From Punctularia strigosozonata HHB-11173 SS5 (Eukaryota; Basidiomycota; Agaricomycetes; Corticiales; Punctulariaceae), in NCBI RefSeq assembly GCF_000264995.1, contig NW_006767434.1, forward strand, positions 1,026,317 through 1,050,478: DNA of 24,162 bases, given 5' to 3'. Positions 360-24,162 of this stretch are shown here, in pieces. The position numbers were made by a program, and so were the translations under genes. The notes under the pieces were generated by a model. It saw only the letters and a list, made by a program, of their open reading frames with translations, had not been told where the DNA came from and did no database searches. Positions within the stretch are counted from its first letter, which is position 1, and every line of letters starts with the position of its first letter.

Positions 360-1812
360 CCTAAGTCCGTGTTGGCTACTGTATCTCTATGTCATAGCAA
401 TCCCAAAGTATATAGAGATACATTTCAGTTCATGAGGCTGTCAATAGTAAATGAATAGGACATTAGAGAGATTAACCACATGAGACTAAACCATTATAAT
501 AGTGTTTCCTAGCCATCACCTCAGTGATCTACAGGGTACATAACTATGTTGTTGGCTACAGAGATATCTGGCTTTTCAGATGTACATGCAGGATGTGTAT
601 ATAAGCTAGGGGTAGATGGGATGAGCTGATATCACAGAGGGAGCCATGCAAGGATGAGGTGTCAGCAGTCAAGTACCAAACCCCAACTCCAATACTCACA
701 CCTAGATATAGTCTCTAACTTCTCCTTGTACATGGACCAGCGCTAATATGATTGACACTGCAACAACCTTCTATGTCAATGGTTTCAAGCCCCCTTGTAC
801 CTACTCTCTAAATGGTCAGTCATCTGGCATGATTTAACAGTTTTATGTGATTTTTTGGCCTTTTTGTGAAATTTTAATAGAATATAGTCATATTATGAAC
901 TATGTATTCCTATATGTAGAAATTTGCCAGAGGGGGCATTTCCTGATGGACTACGTCACTACGGTGACAAACACGCGAGACTCGTTGCATCCGCTCCCGC
1001 GAAGGCGATTACGGCGAACGTTCTATGTAACCCTTCTGTCACACTGCCCACCGACCCAATGCCTGTATCAAAACACCACCGTCTCTGAAACGTATGACGA
1101 GCCTCGCGGTAGCGATCGAAATGCCCCAGCGTTGCCTGCGGCGGCATGTGCGCGTCAGCGTCTTTTGTCCGTCAACGTTGCCCCATGGGCCCGCGCCTCG
1201 ATCCCCTAAGCATTAACGATGAATTCGAAGTGCTACGACTGGTGACGCTACGCAGGATAGCGCTGCGTTGACTTCCTGTTGCGCCAGACTAGCGTCCTCC
1301 TCACTGCTCATGCGCGCATCTCCAAAGATAGATCTTAGGCGGTTCGTTTCTTCCTCACATCCTGGGGACCCCTGCCGACGATGGATGGCGGCGTCAAGTG
1401 TCACCGCCGGATCACAGCGCAACTTACTACTGTCCCCTGCCTTACCCTTTCGAGGGAATGTCTGTCGTCTGCAGATACAGGGGTCGGGCTGGCCTCTACT
1501 CTAATCCTGTCCGTACACGTGAACGACACGAGGTTAGCTTCTTGGCGCCCACATCATCTCCGTATTGCCGCCCCTCATCGATCCTCTCCCTCCCTCCCTC
1601 TCTCTCTCTCTCATACTGGCTAGCGGCTTCAGGTAGCACAAGCAGGTATTCATCTTACGACGCCTTCAATTTTCGGATGAGATGGAATCGGATGCGACGT
1701 GAGTGGGGGACCTGAGCTGATCCGAGCAACGTATTGACGTTACCAGTCCCGCTGAAACGGTTCAGATCGGTGCGTTTCATTGTAATCTGTGTTGTGTTGA
1801 GGACGTAGGTTA
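360..1812. other. gene-free stretch, AT-rich to about 950
   Basis: Base composition drops sharply after about 360 and stays AT-rich to about 950, with stops in all frames. From 950 to 1812 composition is mixed and short frames occur, but none resembles a known family or joins to another through splice signals. A perfect TCACGTGA lies at 330-337, just before the composition change. No terminal repeats, transposase or polymerase motifs were seen, so a decayed transposon can be neither claimed nor excluded. Confidence 0.45.
1583..1612. repeat. CT-rich microsatellite
   Basis: A run of CCCT units passes into a pure CT dinucleotide run of about 14 bases. It lies about 200 bp upstream of the kinase gene and may be part of its pyrimidine-rich promoter. 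Confidence 0.85.
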
Positions 1813-4800
1813 ATGTCCATTGGTAACGTAGATCTTGACGAAGAGACTTGGGCTGTGTTGCTCCAAACACCTATACCCCAAGAACCCGCCGTACAGTTGC
1901 TCCCGACCAAACCTAGCATACACGCTGCCAATGCATCAACTCTCATCGACTACCTTCACCACGTTCGTAGCTATGTTCCGTTCCCAAAATCATAATCATA
2001 ACTCTGCCCCTCGTAGGTCATGATGTTCTTCAGCTCTGGAGAATACCGAAGTGATGCCACCCGCAAAGCCATCAGTCGCCTCATACTGAGGCTAGTGCAG
2101 CAAACGAACATGCTTCCTTCGGGGCTTTTCGTCAATGGCGTCCAATTGTATTCTCGGGATGCCGTCGATGCCGGGGGTTTTGGGGATATATTCCAAGGGT
2201 CATACCATGGACAAGAGGTCGCATTAAAACGTTTCCGCATCTTTTCCCGCGACCGCGTGATCATCCACCGGGTATGTCAGCAAAGTCCACACGACTATGA
2301 AGCTAATGAACCGTATCAACAGAGAATTTACCGCGAGCTTCTCCTGTGGCAAACCTTGAACCACCCCAACGTATTGCCGTTCATAGGTGTTGATGCGTCA
2401 TCGTTCGAGAGCATGATTTGTGCGGTTTCCCCTTGGATGCATGGCGGAAGTTTGTCAAATTATAGGGCACGATTCGAACCCACCCCATCGGATATCAATG
2501 CTCTGGTACGTCATTCATGCACCACATGTGGCAGTGTGGCGTTTTCTTATAGTATTCTGTAGCTATTAGAAGCTGCGCTCGGCATGGACTACCTGCACTC
2601 CTTGTCAATAGTTCACGGAGACCTCCGATGTGTACGTCCCAATACGGCTATCCTGATGTCATGACCTAAAGCACGACCAGACCAATATTCTCGTAGACAG
2701 GGACGGTCATGCTAAGCTCGCCGATTTCGGCCTGTCAGTGATCATCATCGGCGAAATGGGTACTGCCACCACAAGCAATGGCTCCTATCGCTGGGCTGCA
2801 CCTGAACTGTTCGCTACGGGAGATGTTCACAGGACTGTGCAAAGTGATGTCTACGCGTTTGGTTGCGTCTGTCTGGAGGTTCGCAATTCACGTCTACCAG
2901 ATTTTCAGGTGATAAACAATACTTCTCTCTCAGGCGCATACTGGATTGCCCCCATTTGCCGAGATTGCTAATGAATTCAAGGTTGTTCTACAATTAACGA
3001 GTGGCGCCCGACCTTGTAGGCCGGATTACAATCAAAGCCGTCTAGTCTCGGAGCACTTGTGGACGCTTGTGGAACGTTGCTGGAACGTCAAAGCCGACCT
3101 CCGCCCAGCTTCCGTCGTGGTCGTCGAAGAGTTGCGGCATATACTGGTATCCAGCATAGAGCTTGAAGACGGTGCCTCAGTCACGACTGTTTCACGGGTT
3201 GGTCCCATGTCCCACCAATCCTCCTTCAGGTCCAGCCCATCCCTTACCACAACCTTTTCCGCGTCACAGAAACACCTCGAACAGTTCAACGACACCACTG
3301 CTTCCAATGAAGCCGTCGATCCCCATAACCTCATCCCCACGATGCAACCTGACACAGAAGCGGAGAACAGGCATTTCAATTGGCCAGATTCGGAAGGACA
3401 GATCGCTAACCGCCAGGACATGCAGCCAGCGGATGCTGTAGCCCTGCTGGCCGAGCTGCGGCACATGGGTATGTGGCCGTATACTGTCGGTAAATCTCCT
3501 CACGACTTTGCGGTAGTTTTTCAAATCGGGCACAAGACGTCTGATATGCTCGTAGCTCTGTGTTCCGCTGTCCCGGAGTTGACTGCGTCTCTCGTCGTCG
3601 ATCTTTTTGTTCTTCACTCCGGTAATGCCCGCTCGCTTCTTGAAAACTTTATGGAGGAACTCCTGAGAGTACGGTGCAGCCACCAAAATTCATACCCCAA
3701 ACTAACCATGCCTTACAATCAACCTTCAGAGTTTCCGCACGACTACCACCGAGATGAAGCTCCCGGACTCGACACGCGACATTGTGTCCAGGGCGCTCGT
3801 CGAGTTGACTATACGCTTCGATACTTTTCCGCAGAGCCTTTTGATAACAGGCGTAAAATTCGATCTTGACAAGTGTCATGATACCGGATCGTTTTCGGAC
3901 TCTTACAAGGGAACATACAAGGGATTGACAGTAGCGATTAAACGTATGCGTCACGGCATACTTGGTCAAAATCCGGTTAGATTGAAAAAGGCAAGTTCGA
4001 GCACCGTTGTCGCCGTTCGCCTCCCTTGATTACACCGCATGGTTTCCAATTAGCGCTTTTTTCGGGAGATTTTCGTGTGGCAATCTTTGTCACACGAGAA
4101 TGTGCTACCATTCTTAGGCGTCGATCGTCAACTCTTCCCTGAAGAACTCTGCACGGTGTCTCCGTGGATGTCCAACGGAGATCTGTGTGAATACATACGC
4201 AATCACGCTCTGGATCCCTCGGTGGTCAACCAACTGGTGCGCTGTACTGTGCGCTCTGCATTGTGATTTCTGGCTCATACGACCCGTCAGCTGTTCGACT
4301 GTGCCACTGGCCTGCAATACTTACATTCTTGCGATGTCATACACGGTGATTTGCGTGCCGTGAGTACCGCCTCCTGGCCTCTGTGACCATGGCATAAAGC
4401 AAGAGCTTTTACCTCATCTCAGAGCAACGTGCTCATCGCGCCCAATGGGCGGGCGCTCCTGACGGACTTCAGCCTGTCACATGTTGTCGCGGAGGCGGGT
4501 GTGGTGCTCACCTCCGAGTCCGCGTACAGTTTTATTCGATGGAACGCACCGGAGTACTTCAGGGAGGGGGTTTTAGTTAAGACGAGCATGGGTGATGTAT
4601 ACTCGTTCGGGTGCGTATGCCTCGAGGTGAGTAAACTCTCGCTCGACTTTCATCAGTGGAAGCATGACTGGACTCGTCGTCAGGCGTACACGCTTAACCA
4701 TCCCTTCCCGGAAACCCGAAACAAAGCACGGGTCTTATGGCTAGTTCTCCAGGGCGTGAAGCCGGGGAGCGATGTCAGGGACAATCCGGAGCGTTTTGGA

Positions 4801-4980
4801 ATATCTGCCCAGCTTTGGTCCTTGATGGAGGAATGCTGGGACGCCGACCCCTCCCAGCGGCCCACCGCTGAAGACCTGGTGGAGTCACTGCGAGGCGTGA
4901 CACGGTCTCCCCCCAAAGTTGGCGACGTCGAGGAGTCTGAAGGGGCAAACCAATCCTTACAAGATAGAACCCGCACATGA
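1813..4980 (+). CDS. double TKL-type protein kinase (kinase plus degenerate kinase)
   Basis: The model has eleven exons: 1813-1962, 2017-2271, 2323-2505, 2563-2631, 2681-2878, 2934-3668, 3730-3990, 4054-4236, 4291-4359, 4423-4626, 4684-4980. All introns are phase 0, giving 867 residues. Domain 1 (about 95-355) has a glycine loop GGFGDI at 103, VALK with Lys121, a probable helix-C Glu140, HGDL with Asp216, Asn221, DFG at 234-236 and APE at 259-261. It therefore looks catalytic, with the HGD loop usual in fungal TKL kinases. A Ser/Thr-rich linker follows. Domain 2 (about 575-850) keeps AIK Lys601, Glu622, HGDL Asp698, Asn703 and APE, but has GSFS for the glycine loop and DFS for DFG. Each domain is preceded by a similar helical module ending in LPSGLFVNGV or FPQSLLITGV. 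The joint between the halves rests on the intron at 3669-3729 (GTACGG donor, CTAAC branch, TTCAG acceptor). If it is retained, the first half ends separately at 3869. The start at 1813 is the least certain point. Substrates are unknown; both domains are probably cytosolic Ser/Thr kinases or scaffolds. Confidence 0.8.
3991..4053 (+). other. GC-AG intron in the double-kinase gene
   Basis: The donor reads AAG/GCAAGT, the strong consensus known for GC-AG introns, and the acceptor is AATTAG. Removal joins RLKK to RFFREIFVW. This matches the first kinase copy, where RIYRELLLW follows the GT-AG intron at 2272-2322 at the same place and phase. Confidence 0.8.
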
Positions 4981-5400
4981 TGTTGATACTGGAAGCCCTC
5001 GTTTGCACCTCGATCTTGACTGTGCTTGTAGAGCGGTGATGATCAAGAATGAGAATATATGTGCCATACCTTGTTCCGTATCAATGCAGTATCTTATCCA
5101 CTCGGGAACCCTCGGGCGGGCTGTCTGTGACCTTCCCAACATATCCAGTCCGGGCACTTCTGCTTTTGCTGCATATATGCTACTCAGCCGCAGGGATAGA
5201 TGCATTACAGGTATGTCGCCTGCATTCGCCGTGTCAATCGTCTAACTTGGTTTGGAATAGGTATTATACTGGGAATCTTCTGCGAATGCTCGGCTGCAAG
5301 GAACCGTCGTGAGCATGCGCGACTGTTTGTCGTTTTGTTGGCTCTACTGATCGTACGCCCATAGGTCGCGGACTGTATCACATTTCGCGCTCATCGTGCT
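4981..5400 (+). other. downstream flank of the kinase gene with an orphan intron signal (5211-5260)
   Basis: A textbook intron lies at 5211-5260: GTATGT donor, TCTAAC branch, AATAG acceptor, 50 nt. Splicing could join a frame starting at 5049 to a stop near 5337, giving about 83 residues with a short hydrophobic run. Another frame gives a hydrophobic C-terminus. Neither product resembles a family known to me. The segment may be a small gene or a spliced 3' UTR of the kinase gene. Confidence 0.3.
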
Positions 5401-6395
5401 CCTCGTGACACTGCAGCCAGTAGACTCGTTTCGGCTGGCTGGTGGTTGAGTATATGCAGTAGTGTACATGAGCTGCTATGTATGTATGTAGTAGTTTGGG
5501 AATAGAGTGATATCTAAGCAACGTTGCCAGATGGAGCGGAAGGGAGCTCTTAGTTCCATCTGACTGCGCACATCGGAGCGCTGGTAACATTCCTATCATC
5601 TCCCTTCCGCGCCGTCCAGCTCTGGCGGACTTTTGACCGGGCGCGTCGACGTTCTCAGTCATTTATCCGGATGGACTCTGGATTCCGGGTTCATATACAT
5701 ACGAGCCACTCTAATTATCGCTCGGAGATGTGGCGCAATGCCGTGCACGGAGATCTGTCCGGGCGGCTGTTGGCAACACTGGGATCCGGGGGGCGCGTGA
5801 CGAGGGCTTGATCTGCTGATGTAGATCGTGCGCGGTTGGCTATAGTCGTCTATGGCGGTGAGACGTGGGGAGATGCGCTGAGACGCTCAGCAGCCATCGT
5901 AGATGCAGGCCGTCGAAAGAGGAGTCGCAGATGCCTGGGGACGAAAGGAGTCGCGGAGGACGAGTGGGGTCCGAGAAAGAGCACGGAAGAAGCGCTCAAC
6001 GTGGGGCGTTCCTGATTTCATCAGTTCATCGGGTGGGCCCAGATCATACCACGTGCGGGCCGTCGGCGTCCGCGGTCGGCTCGGGCTGTCCAGTCGTCCC
6101 AGGGGCGGAGGACGACGATGGGAGGGCCGGCCGTATTTTGGTGATATTATCGCTGGAGGCGCTGCCTTATCTTCGTTACTCTGCGAGTAGCCGCACGCAC
6201 CCGCTGGACGTTTACCTCCTTCGTTTTACCGTTCGCCGTCCCTTGCTGGTCGAGAGTTGTTGTAGAAGAAAGATCTGTGTCGCGTTCCGCTTGATGTGCT
6301 TTGCCTAGAGTCGCAACAGGATTCCCACGGAGCCGACGACGCCCAGCCAATCGCCCGCGGCCTTCGCCACCGTGCCTATTCACGGACGTCCCGTT
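5401..6395. other. intergenic, no gene recognised
   Basis: Short frames on both strands lack splice signals or family resemblance. A short inverted repeat, AGATGGA with TCCATCT, flanks about 5530-5562. Most of this stretch is probably upstream sequence of the mucin gene. Confidence 0.4.
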
Positions 6396-6634
6396 GCCCT
6401 CTCCTTCCCTCCCAGCCCCTCGTCCTGCTCCTCCTCCCCCGCGCCCTCGCTCGCCAGGCCAGCGTCCCCCACCCCCACACTCGTTTGCACCACCCTCGAC
6501 GTCGCCCGCCGTCCCTCTGCGGCTGCAGCCAGCAAAGGCGCCCTCGCGCGCCCTTAGCCAACCAACCCAAACTTTGCCATCACCACACCATCGACAGCGA
6601 CAACAACGACAACCAGCAAAAAAAAAGCCAAAAC
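6396..6634 (+). promoter_or_regulatory. pyrimidine-rich promoter and 5' leader of the mucin gene
   Basis: A long C/T-rich tract runs from about 6396 to 6560. It is followed by an A/C-rich leader with a run of A bases and an AAAAC context directly before the ATG at 6635. Pyrimidine tracts close to transcription starts are common in filamentous fungi. No TATA box is evident. Confidence 0.5.
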
Positions 6635-9600
6635 ATGCATCTCCACCACCTCGCGCTCCTCGTCGCGCTCCCCGCCCTCCTCGTCCTCCTCGTCTCGGCC
6701 GAGCACGCAGAACACGCCAGCGCGAATGCGTCCCACCGCGCGCTCAAGCGCCGCATGATGCGCGCGAACAAGCTCCTCGCCTCCGCGCAGGGCCGCGATC
6801 TCGGCGGCGCCCTGGGCGACATCGGGAACGCCGTGGGCGACATCGGGCAGGGCCTCGGTAACGCCATAGGCGACATCGGCGGTGAGCGTCGTCGTCGTCC
6901 TCCTCCTCTCTCCTCCTCACCTCACCTCCTTACCTCCACCTCCATCATGACTGCCCTCCACCCGAGATGATCACGCCCGCTTTTTTATTATACATTTTTC
7001 GGGACGCAAGTACTGACGACGTCCTTTGTGTGTGTTTTTGTTTTTTTCTTCAGATGGCATAGGCGCGATCTTCAACCCGTCCGACTCGGCCTCGGCCTCC
7101 TCAAGCGCCTCGACGGACTCCGCGTCGGCCTCGTCTTCCGCGTCCGCGTCCGCGTCCTCCACGTCTTCAGCCTCGGATGGTACGACCACTTCCCCCTCCC
7201 TCTCCTCTTCCCTTTCCTCTGTGTTGTCTTCTTCGTCATCGTCGACGGCGTCTGTGGCCTCTGGCTCTGCGTCCACTTCGAGCGGTGCTTCCGCTACCGG
7301 TGTTTCTTCTACTCCTTCTGGGGACTCGAGCTCCGTCGTTTCTTCTGCGACCTCTGCCGAGGATTCGGGCTCCGTGACAGCGCCTTCTTCTTCGGCCACC
7401 TCTTCCGCGAGCGCCAGCTCTATAACGGCATCTTCATCGGCCACCTCTTCCGAGGATTCCGGCTCTATAACAGCTTCTTCTTCAGCGACCTCTTTCGAGA
7501 GTGCCAGCTCTATAACAGCTTCTTCTTCAGCGACCTCTACCGAGGATTCCAGCTCTATATCATCTTCTTCAGCGACCTCTACCGAGGAATCTAGCTTCAC
7601 AACTAATCCTGCGACCTCATCCTCCCGCGAGGGATCCAGCGCTTCCACCTTCACTTCCGCGACCTCTCACGAGGCCCCGACGTCTTCCGTCGATCCTTCC
7701 TCTTCTTCTGCCTCATCCGAGGCCTCGTCTCCTCCTTCTCCTACTCCTACCCCTGATCCAACCAGTGCTGACGCGTCTTCTTCTTCCCCTTCTGCTTCCA
7801 TCACCTCCTCCTCCCCGGCATCGACCTCTGCGTCTGCGGCGGATCCAGGTTCCTCGGCCTCCTCGTCTTCGGTCGCCGCGTCTTCGACCGCATCGGATGG
7901 TAGTACCTCTTCTTTCTCCTCCTCCTCCGCGGAGGTGTCCGGTTCCACGAGTGCTGACCCGACGTCTTCTCCCCCTTCTTCTGCTTCTCCCTCCCCGACC
8001 ACCTCGGCGGATCCAGGTTCCTCCTCCTCCTCCTCCTCCGCCTCCGCCTCCTCGTCGGCGTCAGACTCGGCGACCGCAACCGCGACGGACGGTACGAGCT
8101 CGGCCCCGGCGCCTTCTTCATCCTCCTCCGCCTCCTCGCCTGTCTCTGACGCGACCCCTTCTTCTTCTTCTTCTTCTTTTTCCCCGACGGATCCAGGTAC
8201 GACGACCGCGGCTGCGTCCGCGACGGACACCTCCACGGACGCGACCGTGACGGTCATCACCGGCACCTCGACCTTCACCGACACCTCGTCGCCCACCGAT
8301 TCGGCCTCGTCCACGCCTACCGATTCGGCCTCGTCCACGCCCACGTCCACGGACGCGACGAGCAGCGGTCTCGGCATCTCGCTCTCGCTTCCGACGATCT
8401 CGCTCCCGACGATCTCGCTCCCGACGATCATCCCCTCGTTGACGGGCACGGCCAGCTCGAGCGCCGCGACCGACTCGTCCAGCTCGGCCGTCACCTCCGC
8501 CGCCTCCTTGACCGGCACGGACTCGACCGTCGTCGTCACCGTCAGCTCGACCGTCACCGACACCGACACCGGCTCGTCCTCGCCCACCAGCGTCAGCTCA
8601 AGCAGCAGCTCAAGCAGCAGCGGGATCTCGCTCCCGATCTCCGTTCCGGGCCTGTCCACGTCCATCTCGATCTCGATCCCGACGTCCCTCTCCATCTCGG
8701 ACCCGTTCTCGATCTCGACCTCGGCCACGGACTCGGTCTCGGTCAGCGTGTCGAGCGTGCCGACGAGCATCTCCGGCGTGTCGACCGACATACCGACGAC
8801 GGTCAGCGTGAGCGTCACGCTCTCGGGTTCCCAGAGCAGCGGCTCGACGTCCGTCTCCGCGTCCGTCACCGGCTCGGTCTCGGGCACCGACAGCGTCACG
8901 TCGTCGACTGCGAGCGGCTCCGACAGCGTCACGTCCTCGACCGTGAGCGGCTCCGACTCGGTCACGACCACCGTCTCCGGCTCCGACTCGATCACGACCT
9001 CGACGGGCAGCGCGGGCGTGACCACGATCACCAGCGGCTCGGAGACGCTCACGAGCACGAGCACGGTCAGCGGCTCCAACTCGGCCTCGGTCTCCGTCTC
9101 CGTCACCGACTCGGGCATCTCATCCTCCGTGACCGCGTCCGGCTCGACTTCGTCCACCGTCTCGATCGTCTTCCCGAGCGGCACCTCGTCCAGCGCGAGC
9201 GGCTCGGCCTCGATCTCGGGCTCGTCCTCCGTCTCCGGCTCGGACTCGCTCACCTCGTCCGGCGCGTCGGCCTCCGCCACGTCCTCGTCGTCCTCGTCCT
9301 CGGTCGAGACCGCGATCGCGTCCCAGTTCTCCTTCCTCACCGACACCTCCTCGCTCGTCCTCCAGTCCGTCCCGACGACGTCCTCGGCCGCGAGCACGCA
9401 GACCGACCCGGACGCGGCGCCGACGACGTCCTCCGTGTTCTCGTCCGTGCCCGCGACGGCGACGGTCTCGTCCGTCCCGCTCCCGAGCGGGCTCCCCGCG
9501 CGCATCGTCGCGGGCGACATCGACTTTACGGAGAAGCAGCTCGCGGGCAAGACGTTCATCAGCCTGCTGTTTGGACCCGGGTTGAGCTGGAATTGGGTCG

Positions 9601-10441
9601 CGAACCACGCGGACACGAGCGGCCAGATCTTGGCGTATACGCCGTTGGTGTTGCAGAACGCGCTTGGGCTCACGTGTACGTGCATCTCTCTTTTTATTAT
9701 TATCAATTACCCTCTCCGTGGTACGAATGTGTGGCTGACGTCGGCCTCGTGTTTTCAGCGGACCAGATCCTCGAGTACGCGCTACAGGTCTACGTCCCGG
9801 CCTCGTACCAGTCCACGGCGGACGTCGATAAGCTGTTGACCATGTTCCTCGCGTACATCCCTAGCGACTCGGTCGACGACCTCGCGTCGCAGATCAAGGT
9901 CAAGACGAGCGCATTCTATACCGGCTCCACCGGCGTCGCGCAGCAGATCGCCACCCAGGTCGACAGCAGCTTCAGCGTCATGTCCGTCTCGGACCCGAAC
10001 GCGGGCTCGGAGGGGAGCTCGTCGAGCTCCGGGACGTCGAGCTCCTCCGCGGACGACAAGGCGGGCGCGAGCAGCAGCAGCAGCAAGCGCCAGGACGCGA
10101 TCATCGGCGTCGTGTCGTCCCTCGGCGGCGTCACGCTCATCGTGCTCGCCCTGCTCGTGTTCCGCTCGCTCAAGCGCCGCCGCGAGCTCGCGCACCAGCA
10201 GCTCGGCGAGGAGCCGTCGGACACGTACGTCGGCGCGCGCCCGGAGGGTCAGGAGTTTGATCGCGATTCGGTTGGCGGGCAGCGCAGGCGGTCGTTCTAC
10301 TTTGCGGAAGACTCGCTCAGGGGATTCGACGGGCAGCATTCGCCGCAGGCGGGCAGCGCGAGCCCGGGCGGGATGCGCCAGCGGATGGGCGCCGGCGCGG
10401 TGTCGGCGCCGATCTTGAGGGAGAACACGATGAACTTCTGA
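6635..10441 (+). CDS. MSB2: Msb2-like signalling mucin (cell-surface sensor)
   Basis: Three exons, 6635-6881, 7054-9675 and 9759-10441, give 1183 residues. The order is: signal peptide (about 1-22, hydrophobic Leu/Val core), a basic segment, a Gly-rich GDIG repeat (about 56-90), a Ser/Thr/Ala-rich mucin domain (about 92-880), a conserved extracellular domain (about 890-1030), a transmembrane helix (about 1070-1092) followed by KRRRE, and a cytosolic tail of about 90 residues. The extracellular domain holds SLLFGPGLSWNWV, SGQILAYTPLVLQNALGL and MFLAYIPSDSVDDL. These resemble the Msb2/MsbA pattern of a membrane-proximal domain with QIFAYLP and AYIPS motifs. Msb2 proteins sit in the plasma membrane, are heavily O-glycosylated, shed their mucin part and feed the Ste11-type MAPK pathways (osmotic, filamentation, host sensing). 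The donor at 9676 was chosen because it alone keeps the frame (NALGLTSDQIL). Another transmembrane mucin of the same group is the main alternative. Confidence 0.75.
7347..7597 (+). repeat. in-frame 45-bp minisatellite in the mucin domain
   Basis: Five to six imperfect copies encode a 15-residue unit of the type ATSSEDSGSITASSS, with variants such as ATSFESASSITASSS. The last copy is one residue shorter. Copy number in such mucin repeats often varies between strains. Confidence 0.75.
8294..8429 (+). repeat. short in-frame tandem repeats (24 bp x2 and 15 bp x3)
   Basis: Two 24-bp units at 8294-8317 and 8318-8341 differ at one base and encode PTDSASST. From about 8388, three 15-bp units encode LPTIS. 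Both lie inside the mucin coding region. A looser 10-residue unit, SGSDSVTSST, recurs near 8900-8990. Confidence 0.75.
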
Positions 10442-18490: not shown

Positions 18491-19995
18491 TCATCCCAGC
18501 AACGGCAGCCTCTCCTCCCTATCCTCCCGCGCCGCACCGCCGACCTTGAACTTCGTGAGCTCCGGCACGGCCAAGTCGTCGTAAGGCGCCAGGTCGTCCA
18601 CGCCCGCCCGCCTCAGGTCGTCCGCCGTGAGCCAGTAGCGCCTCGGCATGATCTTGCCCCCGAACGCGCCGTCGACGTGGTTCGCGCACAAGAGCGCGAC
18701 CGCGATGTTGACGACGTGCAGCGGGACGAGCGCGAACGCGGCCGCCCACGCCGCGCCCAGCGCCCGCCGCTCGAACCGGAGCAGCGGGCCCTTGCACCCC
18801 GGGAGGCGGGTGCGCGCGAAGCACGACGCGCTCGGCGCGGCCTCGTGCAGCGGGCTGTGGTAGCCGCAGCACGCGAGCGATTCCTGGATGACGAGCCGCG
18901 CGAGGGGCGTGTACCACTCGCTCCAGGCGAGGTTGAGCTTGCGGTCGAGCGCGAAGGCGGCCCGTTTGTACGCGACGTAGCCGATCGTGAGGAGCGAGAC
19001 GAAGGCGGGCCAGAGGAAGAGGGCGTAGAGCGCGAGGAGCGGGCGGGAGTGTAGGAGCGTGCCGCAGAACCCGACGACGGAGGAGAGGAGAAGGATGGCG
19101 GAGGAGAGGGCGAGGAGGGCGAGGATGTCTGGGTCGGTGTAGCGGAGGACGTCGGCGTGGGTCCAGGCTACGGAGGATACCAAGTTAGGAAGTGGAAGAG
19201 TCTGGATACCTAGGATCGCTCACAATCAAAACATGTTGCTAGAAAACAGAACAGCCCGACCATGCCGTACGCGAAGACCGACAGAGAAGAGAACAGGAGA
19301 CACCATTTGGAGATGTTCCAGGGCTCGGCCTCCACATTCTGTTGGGCCCGTCGATGCCTCCGCGACGGAACGAACCACCGCCATGAGATCGTCGTCGGCG
19401 GACTGGGAGGGATCAAGCGGGCAGCTGGCCACTTCGAAGTGAGCTTGTACTTGATGTCCGGCGGAAGATGGGGCGCATAGTCGTCAGAAACAGGGTGTTT
19501 TTCAGGCATCCTAGACGGGTTTCTCTTCGTATCGTCGACGCGGGGATAGGTGCGGGTAGACCGGGTTCTCCTCTGCGACTCGTAATTCGGAGGAGGCGAG
19601 CGACTTGGAATCGTAGCTTCGTCTCTCAGGTAGTCGGGCGTGGGCAGTCGCGTCGGTTCCTTCTCGATCCCGTACGGATCACCGCCGACCGCTTCCCCTT
19701 CGTCCCATTTTCCAGAGCGCGCCGAGGCTCCCGTATTGCGCCGTGACAAGCTCGCCCAAAACGCCTCCTTGTTTTCCTCCCATGTCGGGGCCGACGACGA
19801 CGACGGTCGGCTCTGCTGGCAGGGACACGGGCTCGCACAAGCCTCTTCTCGAGGAGACGCAGCAGGTTGGATTTGATAAGGCGCAGATGGATCCACCAGA
19901 CGATCCGAGGCCCGAGGCAGATGGGTCGACCGTTTACGGGCGGACGAGTACGAGTTCAAAGCCGACGAGCTCGACGAAGGGTACCGATAGTCCAT
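18491..19995 (-). CDS. tetraspanin with long cytosolic N-terminal tail
   Basis: Two exons on the minus strand, 19995-19224 and 19167-18491, are joined through a 56-nt GTGAGC..CTAAC..GTAG intron and give 482 residues. The first 230 or so residues are hydrophilic, rich in Ser, Pro and Arg. Four hydrophobic spans follow: WCLLFSSLSVFAYGMVGLF; ILALLALSSAILLLSSVVGF; LLALYALFLWPAFVSLLTIG; and FALVPLHVVNIAVALLC. Between spans 3 and 4 is a large loop with the hallmark CCG (CCGYHSP) and two further cysteines (PSASC and PGC), as expected for the second extracellular loop. This pattern fits fungal Tsp2/Tsp3-type tetraspanins, which organise plasma-membrane microdomains; in pathogens tetraspanins act in infection structures. 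The tail ends EERLPLLG. The intron falls in the first extracellular loop (CFDSWTHADV). Confidence 0.85.
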
Positions 19996-20449
19996 CGGGA
20001 ACGCGAGCCGGAGAGCACACCACTTTGCATCGTAACACGGCGCTCAGACACACGTTCAACATTGTGCTTTGAGTTTGACGTGAGTGAAGAGCAGCCCAGT
20101 TGACGGACTCGAGCGGGGTCAAGTTCGCGGGCGTGACCTGATGGGGAAAATCCCCTGAACAGCGAGAACGCAGGGGCCGACGATTCGTGCAGGTCTGGAA
20201 TGCACCTATGGCTCTACCGGTGTGGTATGCGAAGGAATATGCATGTACTCGGTCAAACAAGACAAAAGAAAAAGAAACGACAAACGGAGTCCACAAAAAA
20301 AAAGAGCGTGCGCGTATATGCTAGATATAGTGAGGGGATGCAAACCTGTCCACGATATAAGGTCCGTAGATGCGATTTTTATTATATAGAATACACTACT
20401 GTTTCTGCTCCGAACAAGGAAAAGAGGGACGAGCCGAGGTAGGAAGAAC
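19996..20449. other. intergenic between two minus-strand genes
   Basis: This holds the promoter of the tetraspanin gene and the 3' flank of the LEA_2 gene. A-rich tracts occur near 20265-20305. No coding region is supported. Confidence 0.5.
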
Positions 20450-23515: not shown

Positions 23516-24162
23516 ATGGCACCCGTCACCAACGGTAAAGGCGCCCGCTCGTCCAAGATGCACTCCAAAGTCGTACGTTCGAACTCTTACCGCAGCGATC
23601 CATGGGGGGTCGTTTAACCACAAAAACATTCGCATCGCAGGTCATCATCGGCTCGGGCCCCGCAGGGCACACCGCCGCGATCTACCTCGCCCGCGCGAAC
23701 CTCAACCCGGTCCTCTTCGAGGGCTTCATGGCCAACGGCTTCGCCGCCGGCGGCCAGCTCACCACCACCACCGACGTCGAGAACTTCCCCGGCTTCCCCT
23801 CCGGCATCCTCGGCCCCGAACTCATGGACAAGTTCCGCGCGCAGTCCCTCCGGTTCGGCACGCAGATCATCACCGAGACGATCACCAAGCTCGACCTCTC
23901 CCAGCGGCCCTTCCGGTACTGGCGCGAGATGCAGGAGGGCGGCGAGCCCGAGACGGCGGACACGATCATCATCGCGACGGGAGCGAGCGCGAAGCGGCTC
24001 GGGCTCAAGGGCGAGGACACCTACTGGCAGAGCGGCATCTCCGCCTGCGCCGTCTGCGACGGCGCCGTCCCCATCTTCCGCAACAAGCCCCTCGCCGTGA
24101 TTGGCGGAGGCGATTCCGCGGCCGAAGAAGCGACCTGTGAGTTACCTCCTCAGTAACCCCCC
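23516..24162 (+). CDS. TRR1: cytosolic NADPH thioredoxin reductase, 5' part
   Basis: Exon 1 (23516-23572) and exon 2 (23641-24136) give 184 residues before a GTGAGT donor at 24137; the rest lies beyond the window. Full-length low-molecular-weight reductases have about 320-350 residues. Seen in order: an N-terminal extension ([19 protein letters not shown]), the FAD-binding [51 protein letters not shown], the redox-active CAVCDG, and the NADPH-binding start [13 protein letters not shown]. It transfers electrons from NADPH through FAD and the Cys pair to thioredoxin, for peroxide defence, sulfate assimilation and ribonucleotide reduction. Lack of a clear targeting peptide suggests cytosol. Assignment is firm; only the 3' end is missing. 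Confidence 0.95.

Follow-up and report, generated by a model that had tools for sequence, protein, structure and literature searches.

Background

The pairing of a pseudokinase and a kinase in cis as a regulatory idea is known from the Janus kinases. For the large expansions of tyrosine-kinase-like (TKL) kinases in mushroom-forming fungi, we know of no established job. In a survey of plant tandem kinase proteins, 52 of 92 are attributed to duplication and 40 to fusion, domains on separate tree branches being read as gene fusion (PMC6170490). In fungi, a TKL expansion is reported in Laccaria bicolor (PMC2838846), and in the fungi-specific lineage FslK 16 of 241 members are described with extra domains (PMC3937382). 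Among the literature matches listed, from a coverage outside which most subscription journals lie, no fungal TKL-TKL protein was recognised.

Here, we describe a locus in a window of 24,162 nucleotides, the whole stretch of DNA analysed, from the basidiomycete Punctularia strigosozonata HHB-11173 SS5. On its plus strand, a single spliced frame encodes two TKL (PF07714) domains whose phase-0 introns match. Unlike in the Janus kinases, the less canonical domain comes second, and the Pfam matches in the protein are of kinase type only. Like the TKLs of L. bicolor, its kinases are of PF07714 type and belong to a large expansion; the main text on that species (PMC2838846) uses neither 'two kinase domains' nor 'double kinase', whereas the window locus is predicted to hold two family members in one gene. 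The resemblance to FslK lies in kinases that are expanded in some Agaricomycetes (PMC3937382). As in plant WTK1/Yr15 and its kin (PMC6170490), there are two kinase domains per protein and the second is less canonical, but the kinase families and the kingdom differ, and kinase 2 of the window gene keeps its catalytic residues.

Results

Gene model

The gene most likely encodes a protein of about 870 residues, predicted from the sequence to consist of an N-terminal module, TKL kinase 1, a Ser/Thr-rich linker, a second N-terminal module and TKL kinase 2 (Table 1). We infer that this protein is soluble; a borderline hydrophobic stretch in module 2 has a 19-residue mean of 1.78. With the start at ATG 1813 used in the initial annotation, the open spliced frame covers 867 aa. 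A start at ATG 1682 with two extra 5' introns, at 1699-1746 (phase 2) and 1770-1831 (phase 1), also leaves the frame open and gives 874 aa. ATG 1682 appears the more likely translation start because the nearest genomic relative found, at C2:1138511-1142858, keeps it but not ATG 1813 (alignment judged by eye). Intron 1699-1746 is not conserved in this relative, which reads through there. The claim that every intron is phase 0 holds for the ten introns from 1963 onward, which are GT-AG except for the GC-AG intron at 3991-4053, but not for the two 5' introns that come with ATG 1682.

Table 1. Features of the predicted double-kinase gene (positions in the window)
Feature	Position	Strand	Evidence
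Probable 5' end, first part of module 1	exons 1682-1698, 1747-1769, 1832-1962	+	ATG 1682 kept in the C2 relative; spliced model open
5' end in the initial annotation	one exon, 1813-1962	+	
Phase-0 intron within N-terminal module 1	1963-2016	+	site matched in 6/11 other copies
Remainder of module 1, with kinase domain 1	exons 2017-2271, 2323-2505, 2563-2631, 2681-2878, 2934-3146 (last runs on to 3668)	+	PF07714, motifs
Putative fusion breakpoint	3143-3166	+	blastn match ends at 3143; alignment decays to ~3166 by eye
Ser/Thr-rich linker	3147-3419	+	stop-free in the kinase 1 frame
N-terminal module 2, part before the intron	3420-3668	+	open, coding-like
Phase-0 intron in module 2, carrying the frame into kinase 2	3669-3729	+	distance to kinase equals that of the module 1 intron
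Remainder of module 2, with kinase domain 2	exons 3730-3990, 4054-4236, 4291-4359, 4423-4626, 4684-4980 (stop)	+	PF07714, motifs
GC-AG intron in kinase 2	3991-4053	+	GCAAGTTC...CAATTAG

Three further stretches of the window were read by eye. On the plus strand, 6634-10441 holds a long frame that is rich in Ser/Thr and begins in a signal-like way, and a later frame with a hydrophobic stretch like a membrane span; it resembles a cell-wall or mucin-like protein. The frame at 18491-20043 on the minus strand, with a CCG motif, looks tetraspanin-like, and the frame at 23539-24156 on the plus strand, with CAVCDG, looks thioredoxin reductase-like.

One gene or two

The unspliced frame of kinase 1, whose domain ends at about 3146, meets its first stop only at 3869, inside the second half. 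The stretch 3147-3668 was stop-free in the kinase 1 frame in 4 of 2000 dinucleotide shuffles, and none of the 2000 reached its codon score, a score that penalises stops. For the linker alone (3147-3419), the codon score was reached by 3/2000 shuffles and the frame was stop-free in 230/2000. In a tandem trio of single TKL genes on C16, stops follow 2, 14 and 10 codons past the aligned end of the kinase. A single gene is favoured over two because the kinase 1 frame stays open across the linker into module 2, and one transcript would then cover both kinases. The joining of two kinases into one gene through the intron at 3669-3729, as first proposed, is supported at the level of frame and sequence.

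Two adjacent tandem TKL genes in place of one seem quite improbable. Such neighbours do occur in this genome, as the C16 trio shows, seven in-frame ATGs between 3207 and 3651 could serve a second gene, and 41 GT-AG pairs of fitting length starting at 3100-3419 leave room for an unseen linker intron. However, since the unspliced kinase 1 frame has no stop before 3869, the first gene would have to overlap the second in the same frame, and the linker between them has a coding-like score.

Kinase domains and N-terminal modules

The domain search of the spliced product proposed in the initial annotation matched PF07714 twice, with 134.8 bits for kinase 1 and 140.4 bits for kinase 2 (cut-off 23.1). 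Kinase 1 carries the motifs GGFGDIFQG, VALKR, YREL, HGDLRCTN, DFG and APE; the counterparts in kinase 2 are TGSFSDSYKG, VAIKR, FREI, HGDLRASN, DFS and APE. The catalytic Lys, Glu, Asp (HxD), Asn and Asp (DFG) are present in both. Kinase 1 looks like an active enzyme, judging by these motifs. It matches 233 solved chains, and B-Raf makes up nearly all of the best 60, the others being TNNI3K, EGFR and one HGF receptor. It is under purifying selection: compared with the C2 relative, dN is 0.21 and dS 0.74 (NG86), or 0.21 and 0.70 (YN00), so kinase 1 is constrained.

Kinase 2 has no close relative in the genome (best identity 44%), and two of its motifs are altered, GSFSD replacing GGFGD and DFS replacing DFG. 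It is not a pseudokinase in the sense of a second domain without catalytic residues, as it retains the ATP lysine, the C-helix glutamate, HGD, the asparagine and the DFG aspartate. The altered glycine loop and DFG, together with a long branch in the tree, would also suit a decaying gene in which kinase 2 is becoming a pseudogene. This is very improbable, however, given a spliced model without a frame break, splice sites that are all GT-AG or GC-AG, and the retained K/E/D/N/D residues.

The initial annotation also held that the N-terminal module had been duplicated along with the kinase. This is true of the 42 residues between module intron and kinase, which are equal in length in both halves and align without gaps with 10 identities, a score that none of 2000 shuffles reached. 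It could not be upheld for the parts before the intron, where 142 of 2000 shuffles reach the score, so that the likeness is not significant. The part of module 2 before the intron (3420-3668) has no Pfam match.

Introns across the family

The exon lengths of the halves (255/261, 183/183, 69/69 and 198/204 nt) and the module introns at 1963-2016 and 3669-3729 were found as first described. The introns also fall at matching protein positions, since cross-alignment of kinases 1 and 2 to the opposite halves, which stops short of the module intron, recovers the same four intra-kinase introns. These agreements had been taken as the mark of a gene doubling, a conclusion that fails because most other family copies examined have the same introns. 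All four intra-kinase introns occur at the same place and phase in 33 of 47 other TKL copies in the genome, as in both window halves, the copies being the matches that score at least 300 outside the window, minus the duplicate L068 and plus the partial L066. Site by site, the intron is matched in 39/47, 45/47, 45/47 and 43/46 of the other copies, and in 0/11, 0/17, 0/17 and 0/17 of 17 lower-scoring kinases. The module intron is matched (within 1 residue, phase 0) in 6 of the 11 other copies whose alignment reaches the site. The matching introns follow from family membership, and as proof of an internal duplication they are ruled out by the 33 copies with all four. The 33.6 Mb genome has at least 152 places that match PF07714, counted per exon and over all kinase kinds.

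Relatives of the two halves

Kinase 1 and its module share 239 of 354 residues (67%) with the relative at C2:1138511-1142858, which lies on the minus strand about 110 kb away. Kinases 1 and 2 share 120 of 292 (41%). From a set of 68 matches, L068 was dropped as a duplicate, as was the kinase at L062 that is not a TKL; of the 66 domains left, 51 entered the tree and 15 (14 low-scoring kinases and the partial L066) stayed outside. Before this set was drawn up, 20 loci were skipped as overlapping, repeated or merged; L087 and L088 came after it. In the 51-domain tree, kinase 1 groups with the C2 relative (100/99) inside a clade of six rows (96/89). Kinase 2 lies outside this clade on a branch of length 1.06, in a weakly supported placement (83/24).

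The halves are not nearest relatives in this tree, and their placement as sisters was rejected (AU p = 0.0256); a gene doubling in the form first proposed is not supported. Kinase 2 as sister to the whole six-member kinase-1 clade, as expected from a doubling that predates this clade, was not rejected (p = 0.42). The two domains instead lie on separate branches, the pattern read as fusion in PMC6170490, but with the sisterhood of kinase 2 and the kinase-1 clade not rejected (p 0.42).

An old internal doubling to a kinase-kinase gene could also account for the locus, if most descendants lost the second kinase, some gained TPR-like tails and the window gene kept both kinases. The p value of 0.42 for kinase 2 as sister of the six-row clade leaves room for it, and the 42 alike residues before the kinases agree with it. 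The same domain order recurs in a candidate pair at C8:1026205-1031450, and in the best tree the first kinases of the window and C8 pairs form one group with their single relatives (45/4) and the second kinases cluster together (83/24), both weakly. We nevertheless regard this history as unlikely. Besides the rejected sisterhood of the halves, kinase 1 and the first C8-pair kinase as a clade of two were rejected (p 0.0001), and an old doubling requires repeated losses, with related tails gained independently by the nearest relative and by two outer clade members.

The DNA similarity between the window and the C2 relative (blastn) covers 1664-3143, ending where kinase 1 does, and a short stretch at 1597-1641. 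Beyond its kinase, the relative continues for 352 codons in a tail resembling those of two further clade members (single-pair blastp, 5.5e-12 and 4.7e-10), with a 24% identity that could be general TPR likeness. The cut-off of Pfam TPR_10 is passed by the tail of one of these two, while the TPR matches of the C2 relative and the second member stay below Pfam cut-offs. In the clade members L053 and L071, the tails, read unspliced, have 35 and 36 codons. A remnant of a TPR tail in the window gene's linker was considered and rejected (best blastp E 0.20).

Kinase partners elsewhere in the genome

The initial annotation held tandem kinase proteins to be uncommon among fungal TKLs. Within this genome, close kinase pairs were picked by eye, and one other TKL-TKL pair was seen, a count that is a lower bound. 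This pair (L039/L048, C8:1026205-1031450, minus strand) has the same order as the window gene. In its second domain, which looks like a pseudokinase by these motifs, HGD has become HGN and DFG has become GFD; the two domains of the pair as sisters were not rejected (p 0.0586). L061, a further candidate for a double kinase, proved to be single. A spliced alignment that takes the full double protein along one path was discarded as evidence: it joins the C8 pair (score 747), but it is not discriminating because it does the same with two separate genes of the C16 trio (641) and with L087 (494).

Other TKL copies are followed by different domains. At L062 (C6:295300-303300, plus strand; 909-3610 and 4929-7609), a degenerate domain of Ser/Thr kinase type stands behind each of two adjoining TKL copies, with HGNLTLES and GDFSS seen by eye; the first TKL copy shares an open frame with its degenerate partner, a Pkinase match of 114 bits. 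At L087 (C8:380800-385600, minus strand), the last TKL exon stays open for 555 codons towards a MAP3K-like kinase and takes in a Byr2-type Ras-binding domain (27.8 bits, cut-off 27) on the way, and there is no in-frame ATG from the TKL to the end of the Ras-binding domain. No other match to the Byr2-type Ras-binding domain was found in the genome. MAP3K-like kinases occur at 5 places, including the query's own, and a SAM domain lies about 3 kb from one of these, on C9. The TKL tail at L065 (C10:369400-372600, minus strand) partly matches a response regulator receiver domain, with 24.7 bits below the cut-off of 30.2. At L077 (C7:1600000-1601500, plus strand), a C2H2 zinc finger match (29.1 bits, cut-off 25.2) lies in a TKL tail that runs off the locus.

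Discussion

The reading of this gene as a duplication is probably to be replaced by one as a fusion. We consider it fairly probable that kinase 1 exchanged its tail for a distant member of the family, and that kinase 1 is the active enzyme and kinase 2 weak or regulatory. The ancestor would have been the kinase-1 gene of the family, with a kinase and a TPR-like tail. After the split from the C2 relative, this gene would have lost the tail and been fused, with the frame kept, to a remote member of the same family, which would have brought its own N-terminal module and kinase. Kinase 2 would now occupy the position of the TPR-like tail and act as a weak kinase or a cis-regulator. We infer the direction and timing of the fusion from these comparisons. 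The join may be older, and the kinase-1 and kinase-2 lineages neighbours of older date, because the sisterhood of kinase 2 and the kinase-1 clade was not rejected.

The locus also illustrates that intron matching can mislead, since introns shared by a whole family mimic the signature of a recent doubling. As a double-TKL gene whose nearest genomic relative is without the second kinase, it is a natural experiment on the role of the second domain.

More tentatively, and with some doubt, the family might evolve by keeping a fixed kinase cassette marked by its introns and swapping the partner behind it. The partners would be TPR-like repeats, another TKL, a degenerate Ser/Thr kinase, a Ras-binding domain with a MAP3K, and perhaps a receiver domain or zinc finger. 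Such partner swapping, including a TKL in frame with a Ras-binding MAP3K, would offer testable hints to the pathway of these kinases. If true, the TKL-MAP3K join would put orphan TKLs directly in MAPK cascades.
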